The notes under the pieces: generated by a model
The model's input: the letters and a program-made list of their open reading frames with translations, nothing else
What the model was told of the DNA's origin: nothing
Databases searched by the model: none
Program-made: the position numbers and the translations under genes
From: Tachypleus tridentatus
Taxonomy: Eukaryota > Arthropoda > Merostomata > Xiphosura > Limulidae
Direction of reading: 5' to 3'
Assembly (NCBI RefSeq): GCF_004210375.1
Contig: NW_027467782.1
Coordinates: forward strand, 38,181,771 to 38,245,770
Length of the DNA stretch: 64,000 bases
Part shown: one piece after another, positions 1 to 61,749 of the stretch
Layout: every line of letters begins with the position of its first letter
Numbering within the stretch: the first letter of the stretch is position 1

Positions 1-1180
1 CAAGCCCATGACTCTTCTTCTGGGTGGTGATGTCCAAACCATGATGAAAACTGTGCTCGTGTATCTTAGGATGGCTGGTTCGGGTGTTAAAACTTTTATT
101 AAAATAAAGTAGAGAACAACATTTAAACCTTCTTAGGTCATGTTAATAAATGTTTTAATATCCACAAAGGCTGCCTTGAGATACATTTTTACTTCAAGTA
201 AGTTTCTTGTCATCACAAAAAACTGCTCAATCTTGTTGTGAAACCAGATATATAGAAAACATTGAATACAAAGCTCAAATTGGATTGATATAAATTGCAG
301 GAAGATGATCTCTTGGCTTATAATAAAATCGGCATTAGGTTTTCTTCAACAAGGCTTCTTTCTTAACTAGAACTAAGTGACAAGCACAAAAATGGTGTTC
401 AGAATACAGTATAGAACAGAATTACTAGCAATGGCCAAGACGTTGTTGAAAAAGTGCTAATTATAATAAACTGTAGTAAGAAACAATATCTGCTTTTTCC
501 CAGCAAGTCTTGCTGTTGTAAAGTGTTACATTTAAAGGAAATTGAATAGGATTCTCAACTCCTTTGTTGAGTTAGTTAAAATAAACACTGATGAAATCAC
601 AGAAGAGTTTACTCAGTTTCTTCACAATTAGTTCATGGCTAATTTCAGTACATTTAGTGATTTCAACTCGGAGAATAAAAGAGCAGATGCATTTTGGAAA
701 AGCACTTTTATAAAGTATCCAAATTTGTAGAGTGTGATGGAAGATTTTTCTGTCTTGTCATATGGACAAACTAGTTTGGAGACTGGAATCTCAGTGAACT
801 CCAAGGTGAGAATGTCCTAAGCAAAAGGATACACACACAACACAAAACTAGTTTATGATGCTAATAAGCATGCTGTAAGTCTAGATCATTCTGCAAATTA
901 TTATATTTGTGAAAGGGGTGAGAAAAGCATTTGGAAACAGAAAAGTTTGGTAGAAAAGTGAGAAAACCTAGATTAACTGAAAAAAGAGAAAAACGATTGT
1001 ACTTTGACATACAAACCCAAGAAGTCTCAAGTGATGAAAATGTGAAACCTGCAGCAGTAGAGATGAAACTGAATCTATTCTGAAAGGTCATTAAGAGAAA
1101 ACCATGATTGGATCAAGTCAAAGAAGAAATGGAAATGTGACACAGACTGGGACATTGATCTTTTTGTGCATAGAATATTT
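1..1180 (+). pseudogene. Decayed hAT-like transposase, C-terminal part (left copy)
   Basis: Plus-strand frames, broken by several stops, give segments like the C-terminal end of a hAT-related transposase family common in invertebrate and fish genomes. There is an FW-containing stretch, then LSYGQTSLETGISVNSK near 750-810, which matches the family's LSHGQxxVERGFSVNK block. That block is equivalent to the hAT dimerisation motif. It is followed by HNTKLVYDANKHAV and a lysine-rich tail. The family is recalled from memory, and frame jumps are needed. A short Penelope-like terminal piece (about 71-150) lies inside the 5' part. A second copy sits in the right arm. Confidence 0.5.
71..150 (-). mobile_element. 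Penelope-like terminal fragment with degenerate hammerhead-like segment
   Basis: The segment begins ATGGCTGGTTCGGGTGTTAA and runs to ACCTTCTTAGGTCATG. It is closely related to 56820-56905 and shares the GGCTGGTATGGGT-type start with the fold-back at 43901. Read in reverse it keeps a GACCTAAGAAGGT stem, which in intact Penelope-like terminal repeats belongs to a hammerhead ribozyme with a CTGANGA...GAAA core. That core is not preserved here. The family call is from memory. Confidence 0.4.
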
Positions 1181-2232
1181 ATGTCAGTGAAAATTATTCC
1201 ACACATTTGTGAAATTGAAAACATGGCTTGGATAGTTGACGTTTTATTGATACACATATAATATATTTTATTAAATAATTAGAAATACACCAAAATAGTT
1301 TCTGAATACTGTCTTTATTTATTTTGCAAATTAAGCTCTTAACATTAATACTGTGTACTCATTTGTCAATTTAAAGCACAATTATAATCATATTGTTAAA
1401 ATGGTAGCTTTCCTGGCCCTTGAAACCCAAAAGAAAGTCTTTATAAAGTTCTGGAATTTGTTCTGCCAAGTTTTATCCATTGACTTTATCTCATCATTCT
1501 TTATCCTCTGTTGTTTCCATTCTTATCCCTCCTATTCTTTCTTATATTTGTCTAAGGCAATGTCAAACCTTTTGGGCAAAGTTACTGTCAAAAGGATTTA
1601 TCACCCTCTCCAAGATTTATTTTCATCTGTTTCTCACATCCCGAAGCACTGGGGGATTTGGTCATCATTCTGTCCTATGTTTCTAGACCTTCCTGAGTTT
1701 ATAGTGATGAGTTTTCTCACTTTTCAATGTTCTTTTTTGTTTGAAACTTTGGATGACCAAGATTGATGTTTCTTCATATTCCCATTTTTGCAGCATCCAT
1801 ATTTTTTGTTAGTTGAGTTAAGAAAGTTGAAAATGACAGCAGGTAGAGTTACTAGTTTTGTCACAAATATAAATGGGAAGTAATTATAAACATCTGAAAA
1901 TAAGTTGTCTAATAAAAAATTTATAATTACTGTTATAAGGTAAAACCTGTCAAGTAATATAGAATTGAAAATAAAGACAGCTGTATGTTTCACATGTATT
2001 TGCAAAAAAAAACCCAAAAAACTTGTCTTTGCTTTTGTCAATTCTGTAATTATGGAGTTTCTCCAAACATTAATAGTTTCAGTTCTTAATCATATATTAA
2101 GTGATATGTTACTTCTTTACACATGTATACAAAATTTGACTTGCCATAGATTTTTGTATTAGCTATGGAAACATTTATTTAGTTATAGGCAGGTTATTAA
2201 TTAACTATTGTGTTTTCTTTCTTTGAACATAG

Positions 2233-2278
2233 GGTGTATTCATTCATCTGTAAATCTGTTACTTTTGGTGGTTACAAG
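2233..2278 (+). pseudogene. Left-arm copy of the 46 bp host exon at 50175-50220
   Basis: The 46 bases are identical to the right-arm exon, with the same pyrimidine-rich acceptor ending in ACATAG and a donor AAG|GTGTGT. In the frame used by the right copy it reads V-Y-S-F-I-C-K-S-V-T-F-G-G-Y-K after one carried base. By itself the exon is intact. The next exon copy (5260) is frameshifted, so this gene copy looks non-functional unless the difference is an assembly or base-calling error. Confidence 0.45.
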
Positions 2279-4389
2279 GTGTGTATAAATTTGATATATA
2301 ATGTTTAGTAATTATTTGTATACTCTAGTTCTTACTAACAGATAAATAATTGTTTGCATTTATAATATTTAATATTTGTAATGAAAGAGGGGTATATATA
2401 CTTTCACACTAACAACAAACTAATTTGCTATAAAAATTACATCAAGGTGCAGGAACATAAATTTAGCCAAACCAGTTTATCAAATGTAAAGTGTGTAAGA
2501 CAGAAAACATGTGAGCAGTGATACATCTGAATTTCAGTTTGTATTGAACAAACAACTGTGGGTAGTTTACTACAAGACTGTTACAAGTGTATATTTGGTG
2601 CATTAACATGTCTTAAGAAGCTCTGTTATGTTTTAAATAAAAATATAATTTCAAAGTTCTTGCTTACTGCCTTAAGGAAGTTTAACTGTTTTATTATAAT
2701 TGCACAAAGTTGTTTTTTATAAAGATTTCAGTTTTTGTCATAAGCATTTGATAGCATGACAAGTGGTGAATATCAGTAACGTAGATATAATATACTTTAA
2801 ACTTGATGTTATTTCTCGAAACTTTGTAATAGAAAAAAATAGTTGAAAATCATTTGTTTTTTCTTTAATTCATTCATAAAATCTAAATTGAAAATTGAAA
2901 AATGTAATATAAGAAAGAAAGAAACATATCAGGAATTTAAAATTTACTGAAAATACTATATCTTTCTTTTCTCAAAATTAATTTTTGTCAACTCTTAGTT
3001 TAGTTCAGCAACACTTTCACAATTAGCCTTTTTTTCTCTGTTCAGAAGTCTGAAACAATATATGATACTAGGATGTATTTTATTAGAATAAGATATTTAT
3101 GTTTGTTTATATACTAAGAAATAAAATTTTGATCACTCTAAAATATTATTAGAAATAAAAATGAATCATGAAGCAAGGTGCTTAAGTTTAACTCTTTCAA
3201 TCTGGCTATTGTTTACTATGGATGATGGAAGAGTTTGTTATACCAGTTACTATGGCATGAAAACTTAGCCAATAATCTATATCTTAATACTATGTAAGTT
3301 TTAAGTTCTAATTCTGTAAGGAAATATGTTTTGAAATATCCTGAATTCCCTAGTGTTACACAGTAACATATTTTCTTTTTATGTAAAAGTCTATGGTTGG
3401 TCTTGCTTAGTGGTTTGTGTAACACCAGTTAATGGCAGTTACAAAACAATGTTTCTCCAGACTTTGGGAACATAGTTGCACTCTAAGAATCATGGTCTCT
3501 ACTTGGTCTTATATCAATAGACCATTATTAGATACTGTGTATTAGCTGTTTTCTGTCATGTAAAAGTTAGGGACAGATAGTTTAGATAACCTCTGTTTAG
3601 CTTTCAAAAATATATAAAATAAAAATAAAATGAATAAGCAATGTCTATTAAAACCCTTTTTACAACTTTTAGTTAAAAGGTAGGAAACCAGTTGAGTCTT
3701 AATAAAAGTTGTTTTTTCAGATTTTTAAAAAAAATGTCACCATTCTAGCTACTTGAGTTTTAGAGATCATAGTCATTAATAAATGTATATGTATATATCT
3801 TGTTGTACATAGTTAATTCTCTTGACTCAGTTGCAGTATTCATGCTGACATGTAGTTTACAGATTTAATACCATTCTTATCATGTTGGCCAGTTGTTAAT
3901 GAATTCACTAGTTACATCCTGTTATCACAAAATCTGCTCCATACCTTTGCTTTGTAGGTTTATTACAAGAGTATCAGTTGAAAAGAATAACCTGAAACTT
4001 TGCTGTTGACCAGCTGCTTTCCCTCTTTATCTGTCAGTTTCAAAATTAGGGACATATATATTGCTGTGCTTGAAAATGTTTAAGACTGGAACAACAATTT
4101 TTAATCTCCTCATCAAGACTTGAATTCTAAGTTTGATCTCAGTATTTTGCAAATGTTAAATGCTTTTCTGACTTTTGTCCTATAGGTAATATAGTTTAAT
4201 TTTTTTTTGTTGGAACAAATGTTAAACAGCTTTTATTAAATTCAGGTACTCCAATTTATAAATTGTACTCCCTTTCCAGGCCAATTCAATTGAACAAAAT
4301 TAAAATAAGGTAGCTGCTATAGGATTTTAAAATCATACCCCTTAACTGTATGTAAGAAAAATTAATTGTTAGTTTTACATACAAATGTT

Positions 4390-4515
4390 ATCAGTGTGTG
4401 TTGTTATTACCTGTTGTAACGTTTGTTATCAGTCACCTGCCAACATTTGTTATTAGTCACCTGTTGTAACGTTTGTTATTAGTCACTGTTGTATCGTTTA
4501 TTATTAGTTACCTGC
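4390..4515 (+). repeat. Short tandem repeat, about 26-30 bp unit, four copies
   Basis: The unit is close to ACCTGTTGTAACGTTTGTTA followed by TTAGTC, repeated about four times with substitutions. The right-arm counterpart (about 47935-48045) has a different copy number, so this array is one place where the two arms can be told apart. Confidence 0.75.
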
Positions 4516-4929
4516 TGTAACTAGATAATTTTAAAAATACTATTATGCTGTGTAAATACTATTTATGTATTAATAATATTGAATAATTTTATAGTTGTTT
4601 CTGTTACAACTATCAGACAAAAAGAGCTTACCACAAGTTTTGGAGAATCACTCATCTTCTGTGTAAAGACAATGTGATATTAACTACAATATTAATGATA
4701 TTTTGGTTAATTGTTTTCTGGGAAGGTCGTAGGCTCACAAGTAATATGATGGATAAATAGTTTAGAAAAATGTATTAAAAGGGTACATGTGGTTCATGGA
4801 CACTTAGTAATTAGAGGATTAAAAATTATCATTTTTTCTTAAATTATCCTTTCATTTATTTCACCTCATGGATAGGCCATTTGGCATAGTTTGTATTAAG
4901 ATATGACAAACAGTGCAACAATATGATAA

Positions 4930-5065
4930 TTCTGAGCTTCTTTAATATATCTTCACAATGCCTGGCAAAATTGTTAAAGATTACAAATAATTTGTAAAAC
5001 CAAAAATAATATTATTTTAATTAAAGGTTCTTTATTTTGTATTCTAGTTATTTGCACTCAGATTT
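4930..5065 (+). repeat. Diverged copy of a dispersed repeat also at 57930 and 59281
   Basis: The run from TATCTTCACAATG through AAAGATTACAAATAATTTGT to the TTTGCACTCAG region follows the order of landmarks in the repeats at 57930-58260 and 59281-59640. Similarity is patchy. The right arm carries the duplicate at about 47385-47525 on the minus strand. Confidence 0.4.
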
Positions 5066-5259
5066 TGAATATTTTGAGTGTTATCATCAACATATTGTGC
5101 AATGAAATATTTAAAATTAAAAGTAGAAAAAAATATACATGCATTTTAACTTTTCATCAAAGTTGATGTTATATTCTTAATAGTAAGTTTTTACTTGTCA
5201 CAAAATTTAATATTTTTATGTTTTAGAATCCAAAGAAATTTATTTCTCTTTCCTTCCAG

Positions 5260-5334
5260 TGTCTCCTAAGTAGCTTGAACAAAGACTGTGTAAGCAGAAC
5301 AATTAATCTAGCTCTCTGTACTTGCTATATCTAA
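5260..5334 (+). pseudogene. Left-arm copy of the last host exon, frameshifted
   Basis: A strong acceptor (CTCTTTCCTTCCAG, ending at 5259) is followed by an exon that starts C-L-L-S-S-L-N-K-D-C, as in the right-arm exon 47059-47175. A net loss of five bases in the CT/GT-rich middle shifts the frame and brings a stop at 5332, giving 24 codons instead of 38. This may be a real pseudogenising change or a consensus error in the contig end. It is one of the clearest functional differences between the two arms. Confidence 0.5.
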
Positions 5335-6671
5335 CTCACAGCTAGAAAATCTAACAGTTAAAACTTTGTGAAATGTTCATCAAACTGAATTTTAAGATTT
5401 TCCCTTAAGGGTTGTTTTTAAATAAAGAAATTAAAACATAGATAATATAAAACTTTGGACTAGAATGTAAACTGTGATACTAACTTCATTGATAATAAGA
5501 TTGTTTTATTAATTTTGAATGTTAGAACATATGTTCCAGTATGGGTGCCTGTAATTATGGTTAATGTGTTTTATATATTTATATTTAAGATACAAATTGT
5601 AAAACTTTGTGCTTCTGTTATGTAACAAAGAGAGGTTTGCTTGAGGCAGAAGATGTGATTTCATGACAGGTTAAGTCAGCTAAGTTTTAATATGCAGACA
5701 CTAGTCTTTGTTAAGATAACATTAAATTTGTCAATAAAACCCTTAAAATGTTCAAGAACATATGCAGTAAAATTAATGCTTCACATTTACACCTATCAGC
5801 TTATGTTTTCATATGTGGTATAATTTGCTTTTAGGTGTATATATATGCTAAATTTACACACACTACTATTTATATTTATAAGCAACATTATTTTTTAATA
5901 GGTTCAAAACCATAACGATTCAGATCTGTGGGTTGATTTTAACCTGATGGTCAGAGTTTATCAATAGTAGACCTTAATTGGATGAAGATGTGAGTTTTTG
6001 TGTAAAGTATTAATTTTTTTAGTGTGAATTTCTTTAGTTTAATATAACAATCATGCAGTTTTACTAAGTGCATTATAAGTGTAAATGTGTGAATTCCTTT
6101 GTTATAAATATCTATTGGATCTATGAATTTAATTTTGAATAAAAATCACACCAGCCAACTTGTTTTATTTTCACTTCTAAAGTCTAAAAGGCTTTTGGTG
6201 TACTTATTACAAACTGCTTGGACATTCTGAGTTTAATTTCCTCTCAAGTGATTCAACAAACATTTGGAAAAGGGAAAACAAATATTGAGAGTTTTTCATG
6301 TATACTTGTCACCCTATGATCTATTGAAGACTGCACTTGTTTTAATAAGTTCTAAATTGTTCAAGCATTTTTGTAGGTTTGTTCACTCATGTAGTTTTGT
6401 CAATGAATGCTTATTCTCAGTTATACAATGAGAATAACAACTACCCCATATTTTTGAAAAGTTTAAATAAAAAACTCAACCCAGATTATGGAGCTTTTAT
6501 TAAAGAAAGCCTCTAAAAACATCAACCCTTCATATTTAACCATTAACAGTTTCTTGTTGTTTTATTTGGTTGCTATTATTATTTTAAAAGATGCAATATT
6601 TGTACTTATCTTTGATCCTCTTTTATAATATCTTCTCTTAAAAAATATTGAATCAGGTGTATGTATTATAT

Positions 6672-7171
6672 NNNNNNNNNNNNNNNNNNNNNNNNNNNNN
6701 NNNNNNNNNNNNNNNNNNNNNNNNNNNNNNNNNNNNNNNNNNNNNNNNNNNNNNNNNNNNNNNNNNNNNNNNNNNNNNNNNNNNNNNNNNNNNNNNNNNN
6801 NNNNNNNNNNNNNNNNNNNNNNNNNNNNNNNNNNNNNNNNNNNNNNNNNNNNNNNNNNNNNNNNNNNNNNNNNNNNNNNNNNNNNNNNNNNNNNNNNNNN
6901 NNNNNNNNNNNNNNNNNNNNNNNNNNNNNNNNNNNNNNNNNNNNNNNNNNNNNNNNNNNNNNNNNNNNNNNNNNNNNNNNNNNNNNNNNNNNNNNNNNNN
7001 NNNNNNNNNNNNNNNNNNNNNNNNNNNNNNNNNNNNNNNNNNNNNNNNNNNNNNNNNNNNNNNNNNNNNNNNNNNNNNNNNNNNNNNNNNNNNNNNNNNN
7101 NNNNNNNNNNNNNNNNNNNNNNNNNNNNNNNNNNNNNNNNNNNNNNNNNNNNNNNNNNNNNNNNNNNNNNN
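6672..7171. other. Assembly gap of exactly 500 N
   Basis: Five hundred consecutive undetermined bases. The round length suggests a placeholder of unknown true size joining two contigs. The left inverted arm stops at this gap, so order and orientation across it are uncertain. Confidence 0.99.
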
Positions 7172-8581
7172 ACTTTTAAAGTTCTCGTCCATTGTCAGAT
7201 AAAGTGATTTCAATCGCATGTTAGAAGTATGTACTATTAAAGCTATAATTTTAAAAAGCCATACTTCATACATGTAAGCTGAATTATGAATGTATGTATT
7301 TTGAAATACCAATGTCTTCTGAAAGTAAGTTCATAAGATTTTCTAGTTATCATTACATTACCTTAATTTAAACTACTGTTTTAACAGGTTTTCTTTTATT
7401 TTTACATTCCAAATACGATTTTCTTTGTTTTATAAATTCACGCTTTTACGTGAATAACAGAAGCGTAATGCTTCATTTTTTTGTAAAATTACAACGATAA
7501 GAGTGTAAGCACCAACATTTTGAGCAACAAAATTTGTGTTTGTTAGAACTACAGTTTCGTTCCCTGAGAGCTAATGGACAGAAAAAGACTCGTTAGGTTA
7601 GAAACGTGGAAGTTCGATCACATTTGGAAGAAGCCATCAGTGGCAAATGGTGTTGGCTTGAGAGAAGTGATACATGGTCAGTCGAAGTATTAAGTAATGT
7701 GGAACAAAAGATTGTGCATTTCATTCTGTAATGAAGTCTGTTCTGTATAACTGAAGAACAAAGTTGCTTTATGAAACTTCATATTATGTAAAACTAGAAT
7801 TCAGTAAGTTTTTATTGCCAATATTACTTGGCTTGTATAAGTTTTATAGTTGCAATAAATACTAGAACGAATTTGGTTTGGGGGTTATCAAATTACAGTT
7901 TTGCCATTTAAATAGTTTTGCTTTGAAAACACTGTAGACCAGTAACTCCTGTGATTTTTCAGATGATGGCCGCGTAAGTCAGGCTGAAAATGTGTTTCTT
8001 GATGAATACATTATTCCTTAAATAGAGTTTTCTTTAGTATGCAATGTTTAATAATACAGTCCACGAATCAAGTTTTAGAGGACCTGATGTGGTTCCAGTA
8101 TTGTGGGTCATTGTGGTGCGTGAAGAAAATTTTGAGATAAATATTTAAATATCACATAGTAAGAAATAAACGATAACTATTGTTAAGAGAGTTTTAAGGC
8201 TTTGGTAACAGTCATTAAAGTGTGTCACTTACAAATAGCAATAATAACCAGAAACCTTAACTATAGTTATGAAAGTAACCTCGCGTCATAAATGGTAAGG
8301 GTACTTAGTATATTTGTGATAGTGATAGTTTCAAGTGTTTTCGTACTTTGTCGCATGTTTAGTCTGATTCAAGATATTTTAAAAGTTCTGATCAACACTA
8401 CATGTATGGGGATAAATAAAACCTCAAGGTTATCTCACATAAAAGTATTAAATATCCTGTTATTTAAAAACGTCCATGTTTATTACAATAATAGGAAATT
8501 AAATCTATAATAAAAGATTGATACTACAGTGTTTCGCTAACGTGTTTTGAAAGTCAAAGTAATGAAATAAAAAAGGTGTAA
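7172..8581. other. Start of second contig, no recognised feature
   Basis: AT-rich sequence upstream of the first visible PDZ exon. I see no exon with convincing borders and no known repeat. The 72-codon open frame near 8292 has no features supporting a real protein. Confidence 0.5.
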
Positions 8582-8696
8582 TTCACGTTTCGAACTCTAG
8601 ATAATTTACAGTTTGTATGTACTTCACGTTCCAAACTCTAGATAATTTACAGTTTGTATGTACTTCACGTTTCGAACTCTAGATAATTTACAGTTA
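8582..8696. repeat. 41 bp tandem repeat, about 2.8 copies
   Basis: Three successive copies of a unit starting TTCACGTTTCGAACTCTAGA and ending GTTTGTATGTAC, the last one cut short. It lies 120 bases before the PDZ exon, in the intron. Confidence 0.9.
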
Positions 8697-8814
8697 TTCA
8701 TAGTTAAATTTGTTGCAGTTTTCTTTTAGTTTCAGTTTTATGAAACTGTATAATTTTTTTTTTTCATTTTTCCATGAACAATAACAACATTTGTATTTTT
8801 TTCTCAACATCCAG

Positions 8815-8915
8815 CTGTCACCACTATTGAGGATTTTGTAGATACAACTATTGTCTTCAAGAAAGACAACAATGAACTGGGGATTAGTGTCACCGGGGGA
8901 AATGACACCTATTTG
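8815..8915 (+). CDS. PDZ-domain gene, third-last exon (first half of PDZ domain)
   Basis: Acceptor TTTTCTCAACATCCAG precedes and donor TTG|GTAAGA follows. Two carried bases are followed by 33 codons containing F-K-K-D-N-N-E-L-G-I-S-V-T-G-G-N-D. ELGISVTGG is the PDZ carboxylate-binding loop with its following strand (the GLGF position reads ELGI). The exon ends in phase 0, which agrees with the start of the exon at 20219. PDZ domains bind short C-terminal peptides and build scaffolds at membranes and junctions. The N-terminal part of the protein is not visible in the window, so I cannot say which PDZ protein this is. Confidence 0.85.
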
Positions 8916-9429
8916 GTAAGATATTAAAAACTGATGACCAATTCTTAGGTCGGGTTAAGTTTGTAAGTCTACTGTAAGTGACGTCACCAAATGTCTACAA
9001 TAACGAGACATTTATAACTGTAGTAGTCTGCTTCAGAAGAACAATCTATAAAATAACATTGTTTACTTACTTTAAGCATAGAGATTCACAATGGTCCATC
9101 CTCATTGTATTTCCACAGGAGTGAACCCTGAAATTTAGCATTTTTAAGCCCTTATATTTACTGTTCAGCTGCTGGCAGTATTATATTTATTAACGAAATT
9201 TAAATTAGTCTGAGATTTCTCATGGAGACTTCATTCTTAACTCTTTAAGAAACCCACACTGAGGAGATTGAAACTTAATAAATTTGAACCAAATTAGGGT
9301 AATTCTTTAGATATCAGTAACAATACTTGTCACTTCTGTATATTTAAGAGTAAAATGTTTTGCTTGAAACTTTATGAAACACAGTTTGCGAACTACATTT
9401 TGTCTCGTATTTTCATGCAAGGTTACAAA

Positions 9430-9690
9430 AAGGGTTACCTACGTATAGCACTCTTTAATTTTTGACCTGATAGACAGGAGAGAAAGCAACACTCGCCACC
9501 AAATCTTAGGCTACTGTAATTTTGTTTGACAAAATATTTGGATTGGACCGACACTTGTATAGTGCACTCATGGGCGTAAAGTGTGAACATGTTTGTTTGT
9601 ACGGTGAATCATTAACCATGAGGTTCACAGTCCGTATAATCCAGCTACATGGTTACACTCAGCCTCAAACCCCAGATTTGTAAACAATAC
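9430..9690 (-). mobile_element. Strongly degraded tRNA-derived SINE
   Basis: Weak resemblance to the minus-strand SINE body (CAACACTCGCCACCAA, CTTAGGCTACT) and to the head region seen near 29620 (GGTTCACAGTCCG). Old and eroded. The boundaries are rough. Confidence 0.3.
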
Positions 9691-9711
9691 ATACACTTCG
9701 TAAAGATTAGG

Positions 9712-10145
9712 AAATATCCGTATGCGAGTAAAGAACTCCACTAAACTCCTGTAGGGATTTAAGGAAATATCTGTATACCAGTAAAGAACTCCACTAAACT
9801 AGTACTATCCTGTAGAGATTTAAGGAAATATCTGTATACCAGTAAAGAACTCCACTAAACTAGTACTATCCTGTAGAGATTTAAGGAAATATCTGTATAC
9901 CAGTAAAGAACTCCACTAAACTAGTACTGTCCTTTAGAGATTTAAGGAACTATCTGTATACCAGTAAAGAACTCCACTAAACTAGTACTATCCTTTAGAG
10001 ATTTAAGGAACTATCTGAATACCAGTAAAGAACTCCACTAAACTAGTACTATCCTTTAGAGATTTAAGGAAATATCTGTATACCAGTAAAGAACTCCACT
10101 AAACTTGTGCTATCCTGCAGAGATTCTAGTGCTATCCTGTAGAAA
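9712..10145. repeat. 61 bp minisatellite block (unit 1 of the macro-repeat)
   Basis: About seven copies of a 61 bp unit containing CCAGTAAAGAACTCCACTAA and a TACTATCCTGTAGAGATTTA stretch. Later units carry about five copies each, starting near 11238, 12724 and 14209. Confidence 0.9.
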
Positions 10146-13100
10146 TTTAATACTGACGAGAATACTTATTTGAATTAAAACAGAACCATTCTGCTGGAAG
10201 AGGGTCTAACATTTCAAATATTGTCTCAAATGTAATCAACCCTCGTGCTAGTGAGACAATTAAAAGTAATACTTCTTACTCTGACATTGAAAAGACGTCA
10301 AAACTGAAACCTTACGATGTTAGCGCCAGGAAGCGCGTGACGTTAGTAGGAGTTTGTTGACAAAAACTGTGGCTCCTGCCTGTGTTGATTAATTACCACA
10401 TCAAAAGCTATTGGGAAACAGCAACAAGTCGCTGCTAAAAGTGATTTTATTGACTGTACATCATATTGAAAGTCAGAATACCCCATTTGAAAATAGGCTA
10501 AATATAACTTTTCAACACAACTTCTTCTGGTATCTACACCTATGAGATGGTTAAATAAAACTTAAAAGTGAACCATCAACAATGTGTTTGTACTTTTACT
10601 TGAGAACTCTATTGATGCAGAAATCCTACAGAAAAACCTATGTCTTGTAGGTTAGTAAAGGCCGCTACGTGACCTAAAGGTAAAGAAACGTTGTACATAA
10701 AAACTCTGCTTCATCATTAAATATTACACAGTATTCACTATATTTAACCTCCATTTCATTTGACTATTTCAGTTGTGCCACATTTTCGTTTCCTCAACTT
10801 ATAATTATATATTCAAGTTCTTTATTCTTGTGTGTTGTAATTATTCTGTTGTAATTACAAATATTGTTTGCTTGTTTTCTATCCCACGTTACTGTTGATG
10901 AAATTGTGAGAATTCCCACACATTTAATAAATGTTTCTTGTTTTCACACTTGTGCTTTGTTTTATCATTAAGTTATGTTTTATTTTGATGATTCCCAAAC
11001 ATTTAATAAATGTTTCCTGTTATCTCGTTTGTGCTTTGTTTTATTATTTTGTTTTATTGTGAGGATTCCCAAACATTTAATAAATGTTTCATGTTATCAC
11101 GTTTGTGCTTTGTTTTATTATTATGTTTTATTGTGAGGATTCCCAAACATTTAATAAATGTTTCCTGTTACCACGTTTGTGCTTTGTTTTATTATTATAT
11201 CTTATTAATAAATAATATATAATATCTTATACCTTTATAGAAATATCTGTATACCAGTAAAGAACTCCACTAAACTCCTGTAGAGATTTAAGGAACTATC
11301 TGTATACCAGTAAAGAACTCCACTAAACTAGTACTATCCTTTAGAGATTTAAGGAACTATCTGTATACCAGTAAAGAACTCCACTAAACTATTACTATCC
11401 TTTAGAGATTTAAGGAACTATCTGAATACCAGTAAAGAACTCCACTAAACTAGTACTATCATTTAGAGATTTAAGGAAATATCTGTATACCAGTAAAGAA
11501 CTCCACTAAACTTGTGCTATCCTGCAGAGATTCTAGTGCTATCCTGTAGAGATTTAATACTGACGAGAATACTTATTTGAATTAAAACAGAACCACTCTG
11601 CTGGAAGAGGGTCTAACATTTCAAATATTGTCTCAAATGTAATCAACCCTCGTGCTAGTGAGACAATTAAAAGTAATACTTCTTACTCTGACATTGAAAA
11701 GACGTCAAAACTGAAACCTTACGATGTTAGCGCCAGGAAGCGCGTGACGTTAGTAGGAGTTTGTTGACAAAACTGTGGCTCCTGCCTGTGTTGATTAATT
11801 ACCACATCAAAAGCTATTGGGAAACAGCAACAAGTCGCTGCTAAAAGTGATTTTATTGGCTGTACATCATATTGAAAGTCAGAATACCCCATTTGAAAAT
11901 AGGCTAAATATAACTTTTCAACACAACTTCTTCTGGTATCTACACTTATGAGATGGTTAAATAAAACTTAAAAGTGAACCATCAACAATGTGTTTGTACT
12001 TTCACTTGAGAACTCTATTGATGCAGAAATCCTACAGAAAAACCTATGTCTTGTAGGTTAGTAAAGGCCACTACGTGACCTAAAGGTAAAGAAACGTTGT
12101 ACATAAAAACTCTGCTTCATCATTAAATATTACACAGTATTCACTATATTTAACCTCCATTTCATTTGACTATTTCAGTTGTGCCACATTTTCGTTTCCT
12201 CAACTTATAATTATATATTCAAGTTCTTTATTCTTGTGTGTTGTAATTATTCTGTTGTAATTACAAATATTGTTTGCTTGTTTTTTATCCCACGTTACTG
12301 ATGATGAAATTGTGAGAATTCCCACACATTTAATAAATGTTTCTTGTTTTCACACTTGTGCTTTGTTTTATCATTAAGTTATGTTTTATTGTGAGGATTG
12401 CCAAACATTTAATAAAGGTTTCCTGTTTTCACACTTGTGCTTTGTTTTATCATTAAGTTATGTTTTATTTTGATGATTCCCAAACATTTAATAAATGTTT
12501 CCTGTTATCTCGTTTGTTCTTTGTTTTATTATTTTGTTTTATTGTGAGGATTCCCAAACATTTAATAAATGTTTCATGTTATCACGTTTGTGCTTTGTTT
12601 TATTATTATGTTTTATTGTGAGGATTCCCAAACATTTAATAAATGTTTCCTGTTACCACGTTTGTGCTTTGTTTTATTATTATATCTTATTAATAAATAA
12701 GATATAATATCTTGTACCTTTATAGAAATATCTGTATACCAGTAAAGAACTCCACTAAACTCCTGTAGAGATTTAAGGAACTATCTGTATACCAGTAAAG
12801 AACTCCACTAAACTAGTACTATCCTTTAGAGATTTAAGGAACTATCTGTATACCAGTAAAGAACTCCACTAAACTAGTACTATCCTTTAGAGATTTAAGG
12901 AACTATCTGAATACCAGTAAAGAACTCCACTAAACTAGTACTATCATTTAGAGATTTAAGGAAATATCTGTATACCAGTAAAGAACTCCACTAAACTTGT
13001 GCTATCCTGCAGAGATTCTAGTGCTATCCTGTAGAAATTTAATACTGACGAGAATACTTATTTGAATTAAAACAGAACCATTCTGCTGGAAGAGGGTCTA

Positions 13101-24100: not shown

Positions 24101-24107
24101 TTCTTGA

Positions 24108-40554: not shown

Positions 40555-40674
40555 ACCCACTAGTACAGCGGTATGTCTACGGATTTACAACGCTAAAATC
40601 AGGGGTTTGATTTCCCCTCGGTGGGCTCAGCAGATAGCCCGATGCGGCTTTGCTATAAGAAAACACACACAAAC
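40555..40674 (+). mobile_element. Short SINE, second family
   Basis: CACCCACTAGTACAGCGGTA, TTTACAACGCTAAAATCAGG, a GGGTTTGATTTCCCC B-box-like element, GGTGGGCTCAGCAGATAGCC, and an ACACACACAAAC tail. Same family as 63338-63460. No CTAGCTGCC body block. Confidence 0.75.
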
Positions 40675-40684
40675 ATTTAATAAA

Positions 40685-41515: not shown

Positions 41516-41611
41516 TGCAACGTTAGCACTTTTGTAAATAATGCTTTCGTTTGAGTTTCTGAAACTGTTTGTATCACTCGTAATGTAACTGCTGGGTTTA
41601 ATTATAGTCAC

Positions 41612-42405
41612 AGATCATAATGAGATCATAATGGAATACAGCAATATGCTATTCTCTATCACACACAAGTGAGATCCTAATGAAATACAGCAATATGCTA
41701 TTCTCTATCACACACAAGTGAGATCCTAATGGAATACAGCAATATGCTGTTCTCTATCACACACAAGTGAGATCCTAATGGAATACAGCAATATGCTATT
41801 CTCTCTCACACACAAGTGAGATCCTAATGGAATACAGCAATATGCTATTCTCTATCACATACAAGTGAGATCCTAATGGAATACAGCAATATGCTATTCT
41901 CTATCACACACAATTGTGAGATCCCAATGGAATACAGCAAAATACTATTCTCTATCACACACAAGTGAGATCCCAATGGAATACAGCAATATGCTATTCT
42001 CTATCACACACAAGTGAGATCCTAATGGAATACAGCAATATGTTATTCTCTATCACACACAAGTGAGATCCTAATGGAATACAGCAATATACTATTCTCT
42101 ATCACACACAAGTGAGATCTTTATGGAATACAGCAATATGCTGTTCTCTATCACACACAAGTGAGATCCTAATGGAATACAGCAATATGCTATTCTCTAT
42201 CACACACAAGTGAGATCATAATGGAATACAGCAATATGCTATTCTCTATCACACACAAGTGAGATCCTAATGGAATACAGCAATATGCTATTCTCTATCA
42301 CACACAAGTGAGATCCTAATGGAATACAGCAATATGCTATTCTCTATCACACACAAGTGAGATCCTAATGTAATACAGCAATATGCTATTCTCTATCACA
42401 CATAA
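41612..42405. repeat. 49 bp minisatellite, about 16 copies
   Basis: Unit GTGAGATCCTAATGGAATAC then AGCAATATGCTATTCTCTATCACACACAA, very uniform. It starts only about 100 bases after the 50 bp array but is unrelated to it in sequence. Confidence 0.95.
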
Positions 42406-43900
42406 GACACCTTTCTTTTAACACCTTTCTTCACTTACAGGAGGCTACTATTTAGAATACTTTGGTGTCTTCTTCAACTGCCATCTCAGCTGAGCTTAGC
42501 CTTTTCTCCTTTGCTTGCAAATTGTGGAGTGCAATTGCTGTAATTTTAATAGCAAGCTAAAAATTAGCTAGTCTTTATGTGAGTCTTCAGAATACAAACA
42601 GTGATCTTTCTTTACCTTTGTTTGGTAGTAATTATAATATTTTACAGTCTAAAGTTTTGGAAATAATTATATGAAAATGAACTGCACTGTAGTTGGTTGT
42701 TATGTAATAAATTTAAAGTTCAACACCTATAAAAATGCAAGCAATCATACTCTCTTCAGTAGTAATGGTAATAATCCCCTAATAGCTCATAATACTGGAG
42801 ATCAAAGTTGTAGTTGGCTAAGAATATTCTATGCAAAACATTGTGGTTAGGCTTTCTATTTTTGTAGAATATGGTATGTGATACTGGTGTTGTTAATAAC
42901 AAAAGTTGAGGTAGAAAACTAAAATGAAGTATTTTAGTGTATATTCTTTATGTGATAGGTGAAGGTTGAATACAGATCTTTTCACTGTGTTACCCCAGCT
43001 GGAAATGGATTAAGAGGAGCTACTCTTCAATGTAGAAATGGAATCTCAGTTCCATGCTGTAAAGGTTGCATGTGAGGGTCTTCCTCATTCAATTTATCAT
43101 ATGAGGAGCAAGAATTGTGCTGAAGGGAAGAGCATAAAATTGAAAAACACAATTGTGATGAACAAACTGTATCAAATGTCTAGAGGATGGAGCAATCAGG
43201 ATGTGGTCATCCACAGTTCAGGTGAAAATGGCCAATGGAGAGAAAAGAAATCTTCTATCTAAAATTATGGAACAGCCAAAGATCAGTTGAAGGACAATAG
43301 GTGTTACTGGACACCAGCCCATGGTCTTCTTAAGGAGCACAATGAGACAAAAGTAAAACCCAAAAAAAGTTTTATACTTCCTTGACAGTATCTTTGGCCA
43401 CAAGATCTTTTATCACATCCTTGAAAACAAAGATAGATTGTGGGTCTGAAGGAGTAGAAAATAAAATGAGAAGAGAAAAATGAAGTGGAAAGAAAGAAGG
43501 TGGATGAGAACTTGTAGAATTAACATGTAAGTGCAGAAGAGTGACAAACAGATGTGTGTCTATTGGGCATGACCAAACAGGATAGTTGCTGACAAGAAAT
43601 GCAACAAAGCTGACACTGAGTAGTGGGAGGACAGGAAGAAGGGGAAAGTTTTAGAGGTGAAACAAATATATTAGAATAGACTGAGCCTGTCAAGGAACAG
43701 CAAGGCTGTGAAAGATGAGAAATCAGAGAAAGTAAATAAGGCTGATGCCAAGCTGCTTTGGCCCATGGACTCCAGATAATTAAGAACACCACTAAAAACA
43801 TCAGGTCAAAAAAAGGATAAGAAGTAGGTAGTCATGCAATGGTAAGGAGTGTATCCTGACCGAACAGGTCTCAACAGTAGAACTAAGTAAGTAGGGTACA

Positions 43901-44035
43901 ATATATATGTAAAAATGGCTGGTATGGGTTGAGAAAACTCTATGTTGTTCGCTCCTCTACATAGAATTTTCTCAACCCATACCAGCCATTTTAACATATA
44001 TATTTTTCTCTACAAGTGGGTTTTCTCATCATCAT
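43901..44035 (+). mobile_element. Fold-back element, likely Penelope-derived, second copy
   Basis: Inverted arms of about 43 bases (43901-43945 and 43959-44000, containing ATGGCTGGTATGGGTTGAGA) surround a 13-base loop TGTTCGCTCCTCT. The tail has TTTCTCTACAAGTGGGTTTT, like the tail at 21760. The loop runs opposite to that of the 21642 element relative to the tail. Confidence 0.55.
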
Positions 44036-44479
44036 GAATCAAACAGGGTACAGGTCATCATGGTCAAAAGAGGGGAATAAATCTCTAAAAATCATTCTGA
44101 AGCACAATGAAGTACCTCAGACAAAGTATAGAAAGGAAAAATACCATAGAAGGGTGCAGAAAAAGAAATTGCAAAAACTGGGAACTAAAGAGCTAAACAG
44201 AGGAGAAGGGTTCACTCTCTAAGCAGATACAGATCTCAAAACAGATAATCTAAAAAGGGAAAGAACAAACAGTTGTAAGTTAGGACATGGAAGTGTGAAG
44301 GTCAAGGCATGTGGGAACATATGCAAAGCTATTCAAAAGAGGAATCAGCATGAACCCTACTGTCAGGTGAGGTAGAAAGCATTAAATAATCACAAGGATT
44401 ATAATCATTGAGCAAAGAACATGATGATCACAACACAAAGGTTGAAGAGAATGAAAGCAATATGATGCATGATGGATTC

Positions 44480-44585
44480 CACAAAATGCTGTACAATGGT
44501 AGCAACCTCCTCCACAATAAACAAGCTTCCCCACAAAATGCTGTACAATGGTAGTAACCTATTCCATGATAAACAAAGTATAAAT
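44480..44585. repeat. 52 bp direct repeat, two copies
   Basis: ACAAAATGCTGTACAATGGT starts at 44481 and 44533, with AGYAACCT and a CCAYRATAAACAA end in both. Confidence 0.85.
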
Positions 44586-44799
44586 AAAACTTGTGTGCAT
44601 AACACATCGCCCATACAAGACATATTTGAAGTAATTATTCCTTGAAAATTCAGGACAAAAATTAAAGTTTTTGTAACAACAACAACAACCAAAAAAAAAG
44701 CAAATCAATGTTTCATAAAGAAATAAAAATCTCATCCAATTCAACTCAAAAAAGTTTTAACAGGTCTGCTGAGGAAATGAATGAAGTTATCACGAGTGC

Positions 44800-45701
44800 A
44801 AGCATATAGGGAATTTACTGCACGTGTATGTTGTGTTGCCCTCCTTTTGTTGGAGAACTATTGTTTCATGATGTCATCATGCACCTTCATAGTCCACATT
44901 AAACACACAACTTTAGATAGGATTTAGCATAAGGCTAGTGGCATGTAAATCTGATAGACTGAAATGTGAGCGAAATAGCAGTTTTGTGTATGATAGCAAG
45001 TATTCTCTCAGTAACTGTCATGTTGTGCTCAAAGCAAATTTAGTAACTATTTTAACTTGTGTTCTCACTTGGGAATGCATTGGTCCTATTAAATGAGCAT
45101 ACAAATTTACATATAAATTATATTTAGGTAAAAATACTAGATACATGTGTTAACCTAAATGTGGTTGTTCATAAGGAGTTTTGAGCATTAGGAAAATTTT
45201 AATATAATTAATATTGAAAGGATACACTTACAAGCAGTTCTACAGCAAACAACATTGTTTTTCTCCAACATGATAGTTTCCCATAAGCTCTGAGAGTTAG
45301 ACACCTAATATAAAAGATTAATTTTAATATTAGAGATATTTTATTTCATGGGTACATCAACAATGTAATAAGTTTTACAATACATGACAAATGTGTGTTA
45401 TGAGTCATAAAGATATATATATAAATAGTTTATGTTCTAGTTTCTATAAAAACAAAGATATACTGGACATTTAGTCAACAGCTTCAAAACAAATCAAGTT
45501 TTTGCATCTGATTCAACAAGCAGAAATAAAATTTTATAATAAATATTAAAAACACAGTAATATCAAAATACATCTTTCATTACAGTATTGCCTTAAAACT
45601 CCAACACCAACATTAAAACCTGAAACAGTTGGATCACAATATTCTGATTAACTTAAAAATAAACATTATTAAGTGTAACAATATAATGATAGGTACAATA
45701 A
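44800..45701. other. No recognised feature
   Basis: AT-rich sequence between the unidentified region and the right inverted arm. I see no exon or repeat. Its left-arm equivalent would fall in the N gap. Confidence 0.5.
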
Positions 45702-47058
45702 ACATAATACATACACAGATTCAATATTTTAAGAGAAGATATTATAAAGAAAGGATCAAAGATAAGTACAAATATTGCATCTTTTAAAATAATAATAGCA
45801 ACCAAATAAAAACAACAAGAAACTGTTAATGGTTAAATATGAAGGGGTTGATGTTATTAGAGGCTTTCTTTAATAAAAGCTCCATAATCTGGAGTTGAGA
45901 ATTTTTATTTAAACTTTTCAAGAAATATGGGGTAGTTGTTATTCTCATTGTATAACTGAGAATAAGCATTCATTGACAAAACTACATGAGTGAACAAACC
46001 TACAAAAATGCTTGAACAATTTAGAACTTATTAAAACAAGTGCAGTCTTCAATAGATCATAGGGTGACAAAAGTATACATGAAAAAAGCTCTCAATATTT
46101 GTTTTCCCTTTTCCAAATGTGTTGTTGAATCACTTGAGAGGAAATTTAAACTCAGAATGTCCAAGCAGTTTGTAATAAGTACACCAAAACCTTTTAGACT
46201 TTAGAAAGTGAAAATAAAAACAAGTTGGCTGGTGTGATTTTTATTCAAAATTAAATTCATAGATCCAAATAGATATTTATAACAAAGGAATTCACACATT
46301 TACACTTATAATGCACTTAGTAAAACTGCATGATTGTTATATTAAACTAAAGAAATTCACACTAAAAAATTAATACTTTACACAAAAAAACTCACATCTT
46401 CATCCCAATTAAGGTCTGCACACTAAAGTGATAAACTCTGACCATCCAGGTTAAAATCAACCCACAGATCTGAATCGTATGGTTTTTGAACCTATTAAAA
46501 ATAATGTGTTGCTTATAAATATAAATAGTAGTGTGTGTAAATTTATGCATATATACACCCACCCCTAAAAGCAAATTATACCACATATGAAAACATAAGC
46601 TGATAGAATTGTAAATGTGAAACGTGGTACACACTGCATATGTTCTTGAACATTTTAAGGGTTTTATTGACAAATTTAATGTTATCTTAACAAAGACTAG
46701 TGTCTGCATATTAAAACTTAGCTGACTTAACCTGTCATGAGAAATCACATCTTCTGCCTCCAACGCAAACCTCTCTTTGTTACATAACAGAAGCACAAAG
46801 TTTTACAGAAATTTGTGTATCTTAAATATAAATATATAAAAACACATTAACCTTATAATTACAGGCACCCTTATACTGTGCACATCATAAGAATTTATGT
46901 TCTAACATTCCAAAATTAATAAAGCAATCTTATTATCAATGAAGTTAGTATCACAGTTTACATTCTAGTCCAAAGTTTTATATTATCTATGTTTTAATTT
47001 CTTTATTTAAAAACAACCCTTAAAGGAGAAATCTTAAAATTCAGTTTGATGAACAATT

Positions 47059-47175
47059 TCACAAAGTTTTAACTGTTAGATTTTCTAGCTGTGAGTTAGA
47101 TATAGCAAGTACACAGAGAGAAGCTAGATTAATTGTTCTGTTTACACAGTCTTTGTTCAAGCTACTTAGGAGACA
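47059..47175 (-). CDS. Unidentified host gene, apparent terminal coding exon
   Basis: In reverse, a strong acceptor (CTCTTTCCTTCCAG) leads into 38 codons and TGA. The peptide starts C-L-L-S-S-L-N-K-D-C and continues V-N-R-T-I-N-L-A-S-L and C-V-L-A-I-S-N-S-Q. It begins in phase 0, which matches the phase-0 end of the exon at 50175. Leucine-rich and helical-looking, perhaps part of a HEAT/ARM-like protein, but I recognise no family. The exon could instead splice before the stop, since a weak GT lies near the end. The left-arm copy at 5260 is frameshifted. Confidence 0.5.
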   Translation of the reverse strand, partial: CLLSSLNKDCVNRTINLASLCVLAISNSQLENLTVKTL

Positions 47176-47384
47176 CTGGAAGGAAAGAGAAATAAATTTC
47201 TTTGGATTCTAAAACATCAAAATATTAAATTTTGTGACAAAGTAAAAACTTACTATTAAGAATATAACATCCTTTGATGAAAAGTTAAAATGTATGTATA
47301 TTTTTTCTACTTTTAATTTTAAATATTTCATTGCACAATATGTTGATGATAACACTCAAAATATTCAAAATCTGAGTGCAAATA

Positions 47385-47525
47385 ACTAGAATACAAAAAT
47401 AAAGAACCTTTAATTAAAATAATATTATTTTCGGTTTGCAAATTATTTGTAATCTTTAACAAAATTTTGCCAGGCATTGTGAAGATATATTAAGAAAGCT
47501 CAGAATTATCATATTGTTGCACTGT
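47385..47525 (-). repeat. Dispersed repeat, right-arm duplicate of 4930-5065
   Basis: Reverse complement of the left-arm copy; see the 57930 and 59281 family. Confidence 0.4.
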
Positions 47526-47934
47526 TTGTCATATCTTAATACAAACTATGCCAAATGGCCTATCCATGAGGTGAAATAAATGAAAGGATAATTTAAGAAA
47601 AATGATAATTTTTAATCCTCTAATTACTAAGTGTCCATGAACCACATGTACCCTTTTAATACATTTTTCTAAACTATTTATCCATCATATTACTTGTGAG
47701 CCTACAACCTTCCCAGAAAACAATTAACCACAAATATCATTAATATTGTAGTTAATATCACATTGTCTTTACACAGAAGATGAGTGATTCTCCAAAACTT
47801 GTGGTAAGCTCTTTTGTCTGATAGTTGTAACAGAAACAACTATAAAATTATTCAATATTATTAATACATAAATAGTATTTACACAACATAATAATTATTT
47901 TTAAAATTATCTAGTTACAGCAGGTAACTAATAA

Positions 47935-48045
47935 TAAACGTTACAACAGGTGACTAATAACAAACGTTACAACAGGTGACTAATAACAAATGTTACAACA
48001 GGTGACTGATAACAAACGTTACAACAGGTAATAATAACAAACACT
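47935..48045 (-). repeat. Short tandem repeat, right-arm counterpart of 4390-4515
   Basis: About four units of AACGTTACAACAGGTGACTA plus ATAACA. Copy number and point changes differ from the left arm. Confidence 0.75.
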
Positions 48046-50174
48046 GATAACATTTGTATGTAAAAACTAACAATTAATTTTTCTTACATACAGTTAAGGG
48101 TATGATTTTTAAAATCCTATAGCAGCTACCTTATTTTAATTTTGTTCAATTGAATTGGCCTGGAAAGGAGTACAATTTATAAATTGGAGTACCTGAATTT
48201 AATAAAAGCTGTTTAACATTTGTTCCAACAAAAAAAATTAAACTATATTACCTATAGGACAAAAGTCAGAAAAAGCATTTAACATTTGCAAAATACTGAG
48301 ATCAAACTTAGAATTCAAGTCTTGATGAGGAGATTAAAAAATTGTTGTTCCAGTCTTAAACATTTTCAAGCACAGCAATATATATGTCCCTAATTTTGAA
48401 ACTGACAGATAAAGAGGAAAGCAGCTGGTCAACAGCAAAGTTTCAGGTTATTCTTTTCAACTGATACTCTTGTAATAAACCTACAAAGCAAAGGTATGGA
48501 GCAGATTTTGTGATAACAGGATGTAACTAGTGAATTCATTAACAACTGGCCAACATGATAAGAATGGTATTAAATCTGTAAACTACATGTCAGCATGAAT
48601 ACTGCAACTGAGTCAAGAGAATTAACTATGTACAACAAGATATATACATATACATTTATTAATGACTATGATCTCTAAAAACTCAAGTAGCTAGAATGGT
48701 GACATTTTTTTTAAAAATCTGAAAAAACAACTTTTATTAAGACTCAACTGGTTTCCTACCTTTTAACTAAAAGTTGTAAAAAGGGTTTTAATAGACATTG
48801 CTTATTCATTTTATTTTTATTTTATATATTTTTGAAAGCTAAACAGAGGTTATCTAAACTATCTGTCCCTAACTTTTACATGACAGAAGACAGCTAATAC
48901 ACAGTATCTACTAATGGTCTATTGATATAAGACCAAGTAGAGACCATGATTCTTAGAGTGCAACTATGTTCCCAAAGTCTGGAGAAACATTGTTTTGTAA
49001 CTGCCATTAACTGGTGTTACACAAACCACTAAGCCACGACCAACCATAGACTTTTACATAAAAAGAGAAAATATGTTACTGTGTAACACTAGGGGAATTC
49101 AGGATATTTCAAAACATATTTCCTTACAGAATTAGAACTTAAAACTTACATACTATTAAGATATAGATTATTGGCTAAGTTTTCATGCCATAGTAACTGG
49201 TATAACAAACTCTCCATCATCCATAGTAAACAATAGCCAGGTTGAAAGAGTTAAACTTAAGCACCTTGCTTCATGATTCATTTTTATTTCTAATAATATT
49301 TTAGAGTGATCAAAATTTTATTTCTTAGTATATAAACAAACATAAATATCTTATTCTAATAAAATACATCCTAGTATCATATATTGTTTCAGACTTCTGA
49401 ACAGAGAAAAAAAGCTAATTGTGAAAGTGTTGCTGAACTAAACTAAGAGTTGACAAAACTTAATTTTGAGAAAAAGAAAGATATAGTATTTTCAGTAAAT
49501 TTTAAATTCCTGATATGTTTCTTTCTTTCTTATGGCCACATTTTTCAATTTTCCATTTAGATTTTATGAATGAATTAAAGAAAAACAAATGATTTTTCAA
49601 CTATTTTTTTTCTATTACAAAGTTTCAAGAAATAACATCAAGTTTAAAGTATATTATATCTACGTACTGATATTCACCACTTGTCATGCTATCAAATGCT
49701 TATGACAAAAACTGAAACCTTTTACTAAAAAACAGCTTTGTGCAATTATAATAAAACAGTTAAACTTCCTTAAGGCAGTAAGCTAACAAGAACTTAGAAA
49801 TTATATTTTTATTTAAAACATAACAGAGCTTCTTAAGACATGTTAATGCACCAAATATACACTTGTAACAGTCTTGTAGTAAACTACCCACAGTTGTTTG
49901 TTCAATACAAACTGAAATTCAGATGTATCACTGCTCACATGTTTTCTGTCTTACACACTTTACATTTGATAAACTGGTTTTGGCTAAATTTATGTTCCTG
50001 CACCTTGATGTAATTTTTATAGCAAATTAGTTTGTTGTTAGTGTGAAAGTATATATACCCCTTGTCTTTCATTACAAATATTAAATATTATAAATTCAAA
50101 CAATTATTTATCTGTTAGTAAGAACTAGAGTATACAAATAATTACTAAACATTATATATCAAATTTATACACAC

Positions 50175-50220
50175 CTTGTAACCACCAAAAGTAACAGATT
50201 TACAGATGAATGAATACACC
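50175..50220 (-). CDS. Unidentified host gene, internal exon (46 bp)
   Basis: Reverse strand: acceptor TTTCTTTCTTTGAACATAG, donor AAG|GTGTGT. One base completes a codon carried from the previous exon (AG+G gives R with the exon at 55099). Then V-Y-S-F-I-C-K-S-V-T-F-G-G-Y-K follows, ending in phase 0. The phases therefore fit both neighbours. The left arm has an identical 46 bp copy at 2233-2278. Confidence 0.5.
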
Positions 50221-51289
50221 CTATGTTCAAAGAAAGAAAACACAATAGTTAATTAATAACCTGCCTATAACTAAATAAATGTTTCCATAGCTAATACAAA
50301 AATCTATGGCAAGTCAAATTTTGTATACATGTGTAAAGAAGTAACATATCACTTAATATATGATTAAGAACTGAAACTATTAATGTTTGGAGAAACTCCA
50401 TAATTACAGAATTGACAAAAGCAAAGACAAGTTTTTTTGGTTTTTTTTGCAAATACATGTGAAACATACAGCTGTCTTTATTTTTCTCAATTCTATATTA
50501 CTTGACAGGTTTTTACCTTATAACAGTAATTATAAATTTTTTATTAGACAACTTATTTTCAGATGTTTATAATTACTTCCCATTTATATTTGTGACAAAA
50601 CTAGTAACTCTACCTGCTGTCATTTTCAACTTTCTTAACTCAACTAACAAAAATATGGATGCTGCAAAAATGGGAATATGAAGAAACATCAATCTTGGTC
50701 ATCCAAAGTTTCAAACAAAAAAGAACATTGAAAAGTGAGAAAACTCATCACTATAAACTCAGGAAGGTCTAGAAACATAGGACAGAATGATGACCAAATC
50801 CCCCAGTGCTTCGGGATGTGAGAAACAGATGAAAATAAAATCTTGGGAGAGGGTGATAAATCCTTTTGACAGTAACTTTGCCCAAAAGGTTTGACATTGC
50901 CTTAGACAAATATAAGAAAGAATAGGAGGGATAAGAATGGAAACAACAGAGGATAAAGAATGATGAGATAAAGTCAATGGATAAAACTTGGCAGAACAAA
51001 TTCCAGAACTTTATAAAGACTTTCTTTTGGGTTTCAAGGGCCAGGAAAGCTACCATTTTAACAATATGATTATAATTGTGCTTTAAATTGACAAATGAGT
51101 ACACAGTATTAATGTTAAGAGCTTAATTTGCAAAATAAATAAAGACAGTATTCAGAAACTATTTTGGTGTATTTCTAATTATTTAATAAAATATATTATA
51201 TGTGTATCAATAAAACGTCAACTATCCAAGCCATGTTTTCAATTTCACAAATGTGTGGAATAATTTTCACTGACATAAATATTCTATGC

Positions 51290-52460
51290 ACAAAAAGATC
51301 AATGTCCCAGTCTGTGTCACATTTCCATTTCTTCTTTGACTTGATCCAATCATGGTTTTTTCTCTTAATGACCTTTCAGAATAGATTCAGTTTCATCTCT
51401 ACTGCTGCAGGTTTCACATTTTTCATCACTTGAGACTTCTTGGGTTTGTATGTCAAAGTACAATCGTTTTTCTCTTTTTTCAGTTAATCTAGGTTTTCTC
51501 ACTTTTCTACCAAACTTTTCTGTTTCCAAATGCTTTTCTCACCCCTTTCACAAATATAATAATTTGCAGAATGATCTAGACTTACAGCATGCTTATTAGC
51601 ATCATAAACTAGTTTTTGTGTTGTGTGTATCCTTTTGCTTAGGACATTCTCACCTTGGAGTTCACTGAGATTCCAGTCTCCAAACTAGTTTGTCCATATG
51701 ACAAGACAGAAAGAATCTTCCATCACACTCTACAAATTTGGATACTTTATAAAGTGCTTTTCCAAAAATGCATCTGCTCTTTTATTCTCCGAGTTGAAAT
51801 CACTAAATGTACTGAAATTAGCCATGAACTAATTGTGAAGAAACTGAGTAAACTCTTCTGTGATTTCATCAGTGTTTATTTTAACTAACTCAACAAAGGA
51901 GTTGAGAATCCTATTCAATTTCCTTTAAGAAATGTAACACTTTACAACAGCAAGACTTGCTGGGAAAAAGCAGATATTGTTTCTTACTACAGTTTATTAT
52001 AATTAGCACTTTTTCAACAACGTCTTGGCCATTGCTAGTAATTCTGTTCTATACTGTATTCTGAACACCATTTTGTGCTTGTCACTTAGTTCTAGTTAAG
52101 AAAGAAGCCTTGTTGAAGAAAACCTAATGCCGATTTTATTATAAGCCAAGAGATCATCTTCCTGCAATTTATATCAATCCAATTTGAGCTTTGTATTCAA
52201 TGTTTTCTATATATCTGGTTTCACAACAAGATTGAGCAGTTTTTTGTGATGACAAGAAACTTACTTGAAGTAAAAATGTATCTCAAGGCAGCCTTTGTGG
52301 ATATTAAAACATTTATTAACATGACCTAAGAAGGTTTAAATGTTGTTCTCTACTTTATTTTAATAAAAGTTTTAACACCGAACCAGCCATCCTAAGATAC
52401 ACGAGCACAGTTTTCATCATGGTTTGGACATCACCACCCAGAAGAAGAGTCATGGGCTTG
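51290..52460 (-). pseudogene. Decayed hAT-like transposase (right copy)
   Basis: Reverse-complement partner of 1-1180 with the same broken frames, including the GQTSLETGISVNSK-like block near 51660-51700. It lies on the same strand as the host exons, downstream of the exon at 55099, in a presumed intron. Confidence 0.5.
52315..52392 (+). mobile_element. Penelope-like terminal fragment (right-arm copy)
   Basis: Partner of 71-150. On this strand it reads ATGACCTAAGAAGGTTTAAA, a hammerhead-like stem without an intact core, and ends near ACCAGCCAT. Confidence 0.4.
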
Positions 52461-57924: not shown

Positions 57925-57929
57925 CTTAA

Positions 57930-61747: not shown

Positions 61748-61749
61748 CT

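Follow-up and report, generated by a model that had tools for sequence, protein, structure and literature searches.

The pair of inverted arms found in a 64,000-nucleotide stretch of the Tachypleus tridentatus genome (the window; C19:38181771-38245770 in an assembly of 2.167 Gb and 205 contigs) raises the question of whether it represents a real inverted duplication, two haplotypes of one locus or an error of assembly. We addressed this question by comparing the extent of the homology with the positions of contig ends, the distribution of differences between the arms and the arrangement of related copies elsewhere in the genome.

Extent of the homology and its relation to contig ends

Self-comparison of the window aligns positions 1-6669 with 45704-52460 on the minus strand at 97.07% identity over 6784 columns (57 mismatches and 92 gap openings). 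This match, which is far beyond chance, agrees with a preliminary description of 1-6671 and 45702-52460 as reverse complements that differ by roughly 1-4%. A MAFFT alignment of the two arms contains 91 substitutions in 6649 aligned columns; gap events number 62 on the left (including two end overhangs from cutting) and 20 on the right.

The duplication had been described as 6.7 kb long, which proves too small. When 100 kb is added on either side of the window (a 264 kb stretch, in which negative coordinates lie to the left of window position 1), homology passes both window edges: with flanks included, the left contig from -29282 to 6669 matches the right contig from 81923 to 45704, reversed, over approximately 36 kb. 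The outer limits of the match are C19:38152488 (-29282) and C19:38263693 (81923), and the apparent outer end of the left arm is the window edge rather than a biological boundary. The contigs, gaps and shared segments are arranged as follows.

-52918..6671: left contig, whole, 59590 bases, bounded by 500-N gaps
1..6671, plus strand: terminal (3') part of the left contig, comprising the inner 6.7 kb of the 36 kb overlap, with consensus quality low towards 6671
6672..7171, no strand: scaffolding gap of 500 N, the sole N run inside the window
7172..81923: right contig, whole, 74752 bases, bounded by 500-N gaps
7172..64000 and on to 81923, minus strand (its probable real orientation with respect to the left contig): right contig, apparently placed in reverse
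7172..45703, no strand: inter-arm sequence as scaffolded; lies directly beyond the arm in other copies and is the putative true continuation of the left contig
45704..64000 and on to 81923, minus strand: right contig's share of the overlap; same sequence as the left contig from 6669 down to -29282
45704..52460: the part of this share visible in the preliminary description
81924..82423: 500-N gap beyond the right contig

The two ends of the homology fall within about 2 bases of contig ends (6669 of 6671 for the left contig; 81923 of 81923 for the right). Homology that reaches a contig end on both contigs has the geometry of a dovetail overlap, and an end-to-end overlap will look like an inverted repeat when one contig is written in reverse. 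The left arm had been described as cut by the gap; its counterpart, thought to be embedded in continuous sequence, is so inside the window only, and its far end is the last base of its contig, at the 500-N gap that follows.

Four 500-N gaps occur in the 264 kb stretch, namely the one between the arms and three more. Two of the four are associated with unmerged overlaps and the other two lack them, the outer two contigs being partly covered by the stretch. The second overlap is direct and spans 11 kb at 98.3% identity (-64353..-53420 and -52918..-41970; C19:38117417-38139800). It flanks the gap at -53418..-52919, such that the end of the preceding contig equals the start of the left contig, and both contig ends are reached. 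This direct overlap supports the placement of the left contig relative to its left neighbor; the contig laid down in reverse is probably the right one rather than the left.

False duplications are separated, in the part of PMC9516828 that concerns them, into homotype cases, which stem from read errors and under-collapsed sequence, and heterotype cases, which stem from uncollapsed alleles, and a gap between duplicates on one scaffold is given as a mark of false duplication. The two copies studied here lie on one scaffold, with the 500 N of the scaffolding gap between them.

Distribution of differences between the two copies

We found that the differences between the copies are concentrated towards one contig end. 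After masking of tandem arrays, the long matching pieces between -28596 and -3857 are 99.5-100% identical, and identity then drops to 98.4% at -3426..4395 and to 94.6% at 4522..6669. Unmasked BLAST identity over -29282..-15045 is lower (about 98%) because of tandem arrays, masked pieces in this interval being 99.6-100% identical. In 1-kb bins, which step over the stretch at about -20112 to -11597 with its large tandem array, the count is 0-1 substitutions at -11596..-6597 and rises irregularly to 29 substitutions and 23 left-arm gap events at 5404-6403; the bin at -23282, with 11 substitutions, lies inside a tandem array. Near-identity in part of this core (-9999..-6500) is not unique to the arm pair, since the copy at C19:3664680 nearly equals the right contig in its match to the left contig (6270 versus 6278 bits).

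To assign the differences to one arm or the other, we aligned positions 4540-6669 of the left arm with the right arm and the six best of 22 other genomic copies, a set that does not include the C19:3664680 copy. Taking these six paralogs as reference, the right arm agrees with the majority in 152 of the 154 columns at which the arms differ. Private columns number 144 in the left arm (68 substitutions, 67 deleted and 9 inserted), 0 in the right arm and 9, 24, 10, 2, 14 and 24 in the six paralogs. Once private substitutions are removed, about 2 substitutions separate the left arm from the right arm, and about 6-16 separate it from the other six copies. Since nearly all of the differences belong to the left arm alone and become denser towards the end of its contig, they look like consensus errors at a contig end, as in homotype false duplication, rather than marks of age or haplotype.

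This distribution bears on the earlier proposal of an alternative haplotype, in which the two contigs would be alleles of one locus, one of them scaffolded backwards, and the differences would be real variants. Heterotype false duplication of the kind described in part of PMC9516828 would produce the same overlap geometry and gap, and some residual differences do occur in the core. In most of the neighboring 11 kb direct overlap, moreover, there are 2-8 substitutions per kb, and the portion of PMC7210998 that deals with heterozygosity gives a value of 0.8% for another horseshoe crab, Carcinoscorpius rotundicauda. Allelic variants, however, should be spread over both copies at a density near the heterozygosity of the genome. 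The differences observed are instead one-sided and rise to one contig end, the right arm having none of the deleted or inserted private columns seen in the left, and the 0-1 substitutions per kb of the core fall far under 0.8%, a benchmark taken from that other species and not from this individual. An allelic copy is thus disfavored by the one-sided distribution of differences, and we consider it improbable that the contigs represent two haplotypes, including two haplotypes of very low divergence.

Order and orientation of the segment elsewhere in the genome

The arm sequence is multicopy. A left-arm probe identified at least 24 arm loci, 15 on C19 (the two arms included) and the others on C4, C3, C8 and C14, where a copy was counted if it matched over roughly 580 bases or more at 90% identity or more. 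The best 40 of 245 candidates were scored for this probe, and the genome searches in general score the best candidates only, so that all copy numbers are lower bounds. Multiple copies were likewise detected with probes from the left flank, from the core of the overlap and from the start of the right contig.

These copies provide a means of asking whether the ends of the homology are breakpoints. A probe that spans the inner end (45704) has matches extending to either side of it at 22 other places, which argues that this position is not a duplication breakpoint. The sole long match that starts at 45704 is the left arm, the only other being a 195-base fragment on C8. Six other places match across the outer end of the overlap, where the sequence is partly repetitive. 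Breakpoints within assembled sequence and independent of contig ends, as expected of a real inverted duplication, were thus not observed at either end.

We then compared the order of the four probes among the copies, in a table compiled by hand from 24 of 91 arm rows, 21 of 28 right-contig-start rows, 19 of 54 core rows and 21 of 41 left-flank rows, short pieces and distant repeats being left out. In the 22 arms other than the pair itself, the start of the right contig lies downstream on the same strand, at a distance of 29-60 kb, in 12 cases and on the opposite strand in none, with no copy within 75 kb in the remaining 10. The core probe is found upstream in the same orientation in 13 arms and in the opposite orientation in 1 (assigned via a neighboring copy), and 8 arms lack it; the left-flank probe is found upstream in the same orientation in 6 arms, and 16 lack it. 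The sole exception to the orientation rule is the left arm, which has the start of the right contig 2.2 kb away on the opposite strand. At C14 7.16-7.24 Mb, all four probes are in line and match the prediction for the left contig joined to a reversed right contig. The merged order of left flank, overlap and reversed remainder of the right contig is thus the order seen in other copies, and flipping the right contig restores the arrangement of 12/12 checkable copies.

The other explanation to be weighed against these observations is that a segment of 36 kb or more was truly duplicated in inverted orientation, the arms being 39 kb apart and the contigs broken at the repeat boundaries. Assemblers can break contigs at true repeat boundaries, which counts against an artefact. 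High identity, inverted arms and a multicopy neighborhood, all properties of the arm pair, are those of inverted segmental duplications and ampliconic palindromes. The segment does exist in many copies, recent ones at 97-100%, and a genuine inverted pair would not be out of character, since inverted pairs of the segment occur elsewhere by position (C4:60.40-60.48, C19:3.68-3.77 and C19:45.19-45.20 Mb; for example, C4:60396826 on the plus strand and 60480696 on the minus strand). Here, however, the homology terminates at a contig end on either side, at positions that are not breakpoints in other copies; the left copy would be missing the 38 kb of continuation present in every checkable copy; and the changes in the left arm resemble errors rather than evolution. 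A real inverted duplication is thus highly improbable, and a true palindrome whose arms are kept alike by gene conversion is rejected as first choice given the contig-end boundaries and the left copy without its usual continuation.

Facing copies of the right-contig start occur at both C4:60.40-60.48 and C4:21.22-21.28 Mb with similar scores (about 94% and 96-97%), which would be consistent with duplication, or double placement, of an entire inverted pair.

A probably misassembled locus and its multicopy family

The explanation that we favor, and regard as very probable from the sequence, is that the arm pair is a false duplication produced by an unmerged overlap at a single locus, with one of the two contigs reversed. 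One genomic stretch of about 36 kb would have been assembled twice, once at the 3' end of each contig, and the two versions would have escaped merging, probably owing to the many consensus errors in the last few kb of the left contig. Scaffolding of the Hi-C type would then have set the two contigs side by side, as expected of one locus, but with the right contig laid in reverse, such that a head-to-tail overlap takes on the appearance of an inverted repeat with a 500-N gap inside it. On this reading, reads and Hi-C contacts would be expected to bear out the reversed overlap. The artefact with backward scaffolding that had been preferred at the outset is in this respect upheld, by the coincidence of both homology ends with contig ends and by the order that flipping restores; the rearrangement hotspot that a real duplication would have formed is most likely an assembly error.

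Flipping the right contig would also create a new join to the next contig. One paralog was read for this join, at C19:26.3 Mb; it extends about 2.7 kb past the start of the right contig, and this extension has no match in the 264 kb stretch, so the paralog lends the putative join no positive support.

The arm pair appears to fit the homotype kind of false duplication described in part of PMC9516828, with a reversal added. It shares with that kind the placement of both copies on one scaffold at either side of a gap, error-like differences and a duplicate beside its source. It differs in that the second contig is reversed, so that the result looks inverted rather than tandem, and in that it lies within a truly multicopy segment; the class is assigned here on grounds other than depth or k-mer criteria.

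The segment itself includes two exon-like open frames within the inter-arm sequence.

8778..8924, plus strand: open frame encoding the first part of an InaD-like PDZ domain, exon-like; alone it has no Pfam match
20219..20398, plus strand: open frame encoding the next part of the PDZ domain, exon-like; Pfam PDZ at E 0.0018 and 19.1 bits, under the cut-off of 23.2

Joined by hand, the two frames match the InaD-like protein 6ird_C at 2e-14. They are amplified with the segment on C19, C4, C12, C14 and elsewhere, some copies having stops or being partial. Less similar PDZ matches are found on C1, C2, C4 and C13, and the parent gene may be among them.

Several other features were observed in and around the window. 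A tandem array of about 310 copies of a 31-base unit occupies 9.6 kb at 30598-40246, and the next contig, outside the window, opens with an array of a 55-base unit that extends over approximately 34 kb by self-matches (82424-116639). A 33-base minisatellite of 40 copies at 16386-17704 is free of stops for 482 codons on the minus strand; matches of the 482-amino-acid frame (16372-17820) to Pfam were judged spurious, since the frame lies on this minisatellite and no stretch passes alone. Mariner-like transposase pieces are present at 22786-23286 (HTH_48, E 5.9e-19) and 23340-23573 (Transposase_1, E 0.00068, below cut-off), along with a weak reverse transcriptase match at 24820-25098 (RVT_1, E 0.0016, below cut-off). 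Searches for RNA families at gathering score and for tRNAs found none. The Coagulin family (PF02035), which marks horseshoe crabs, has 19 matches over cut-off in this genome versus 0 in 14 control genomes.

Because probes match with extents and breakpoints that differ between places, the multicopy segment seems more like a segmental duplication than a discrete mobile element. Of the 22 other arm copies, 13 are on C19, which makes up 3% of the assembly. We raise as a doubtful suggestion that the artefact sits within a real ampliconic family, comprising a segment of about 90 kb with InaD-like PDZ exons and large tandem arrays and several inverted pairs by position, and that C19 is a candidate sex-linked or otherwise unusual chromosome with palindrome-like amplicons. 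Information on horseshoe-crab sex chromosomes is described as lacking in the part of PMC7210998 that touches on them.

Taken at face value, the arm pair would enter the record as a hotspot of rearrangement, and counts for this genome would be inflated by a spurious copy of about 36 kb together with any genes that it holds. Homology bounded on both sides by contig ends, combined with private errors on one arm, is a general warning sign of such cases. As a biological finding the arm pair is ordinary, and the surrounding multicopy family alone is of further interest: it is a real family that is worth study, but after errors of this kind have been removed.
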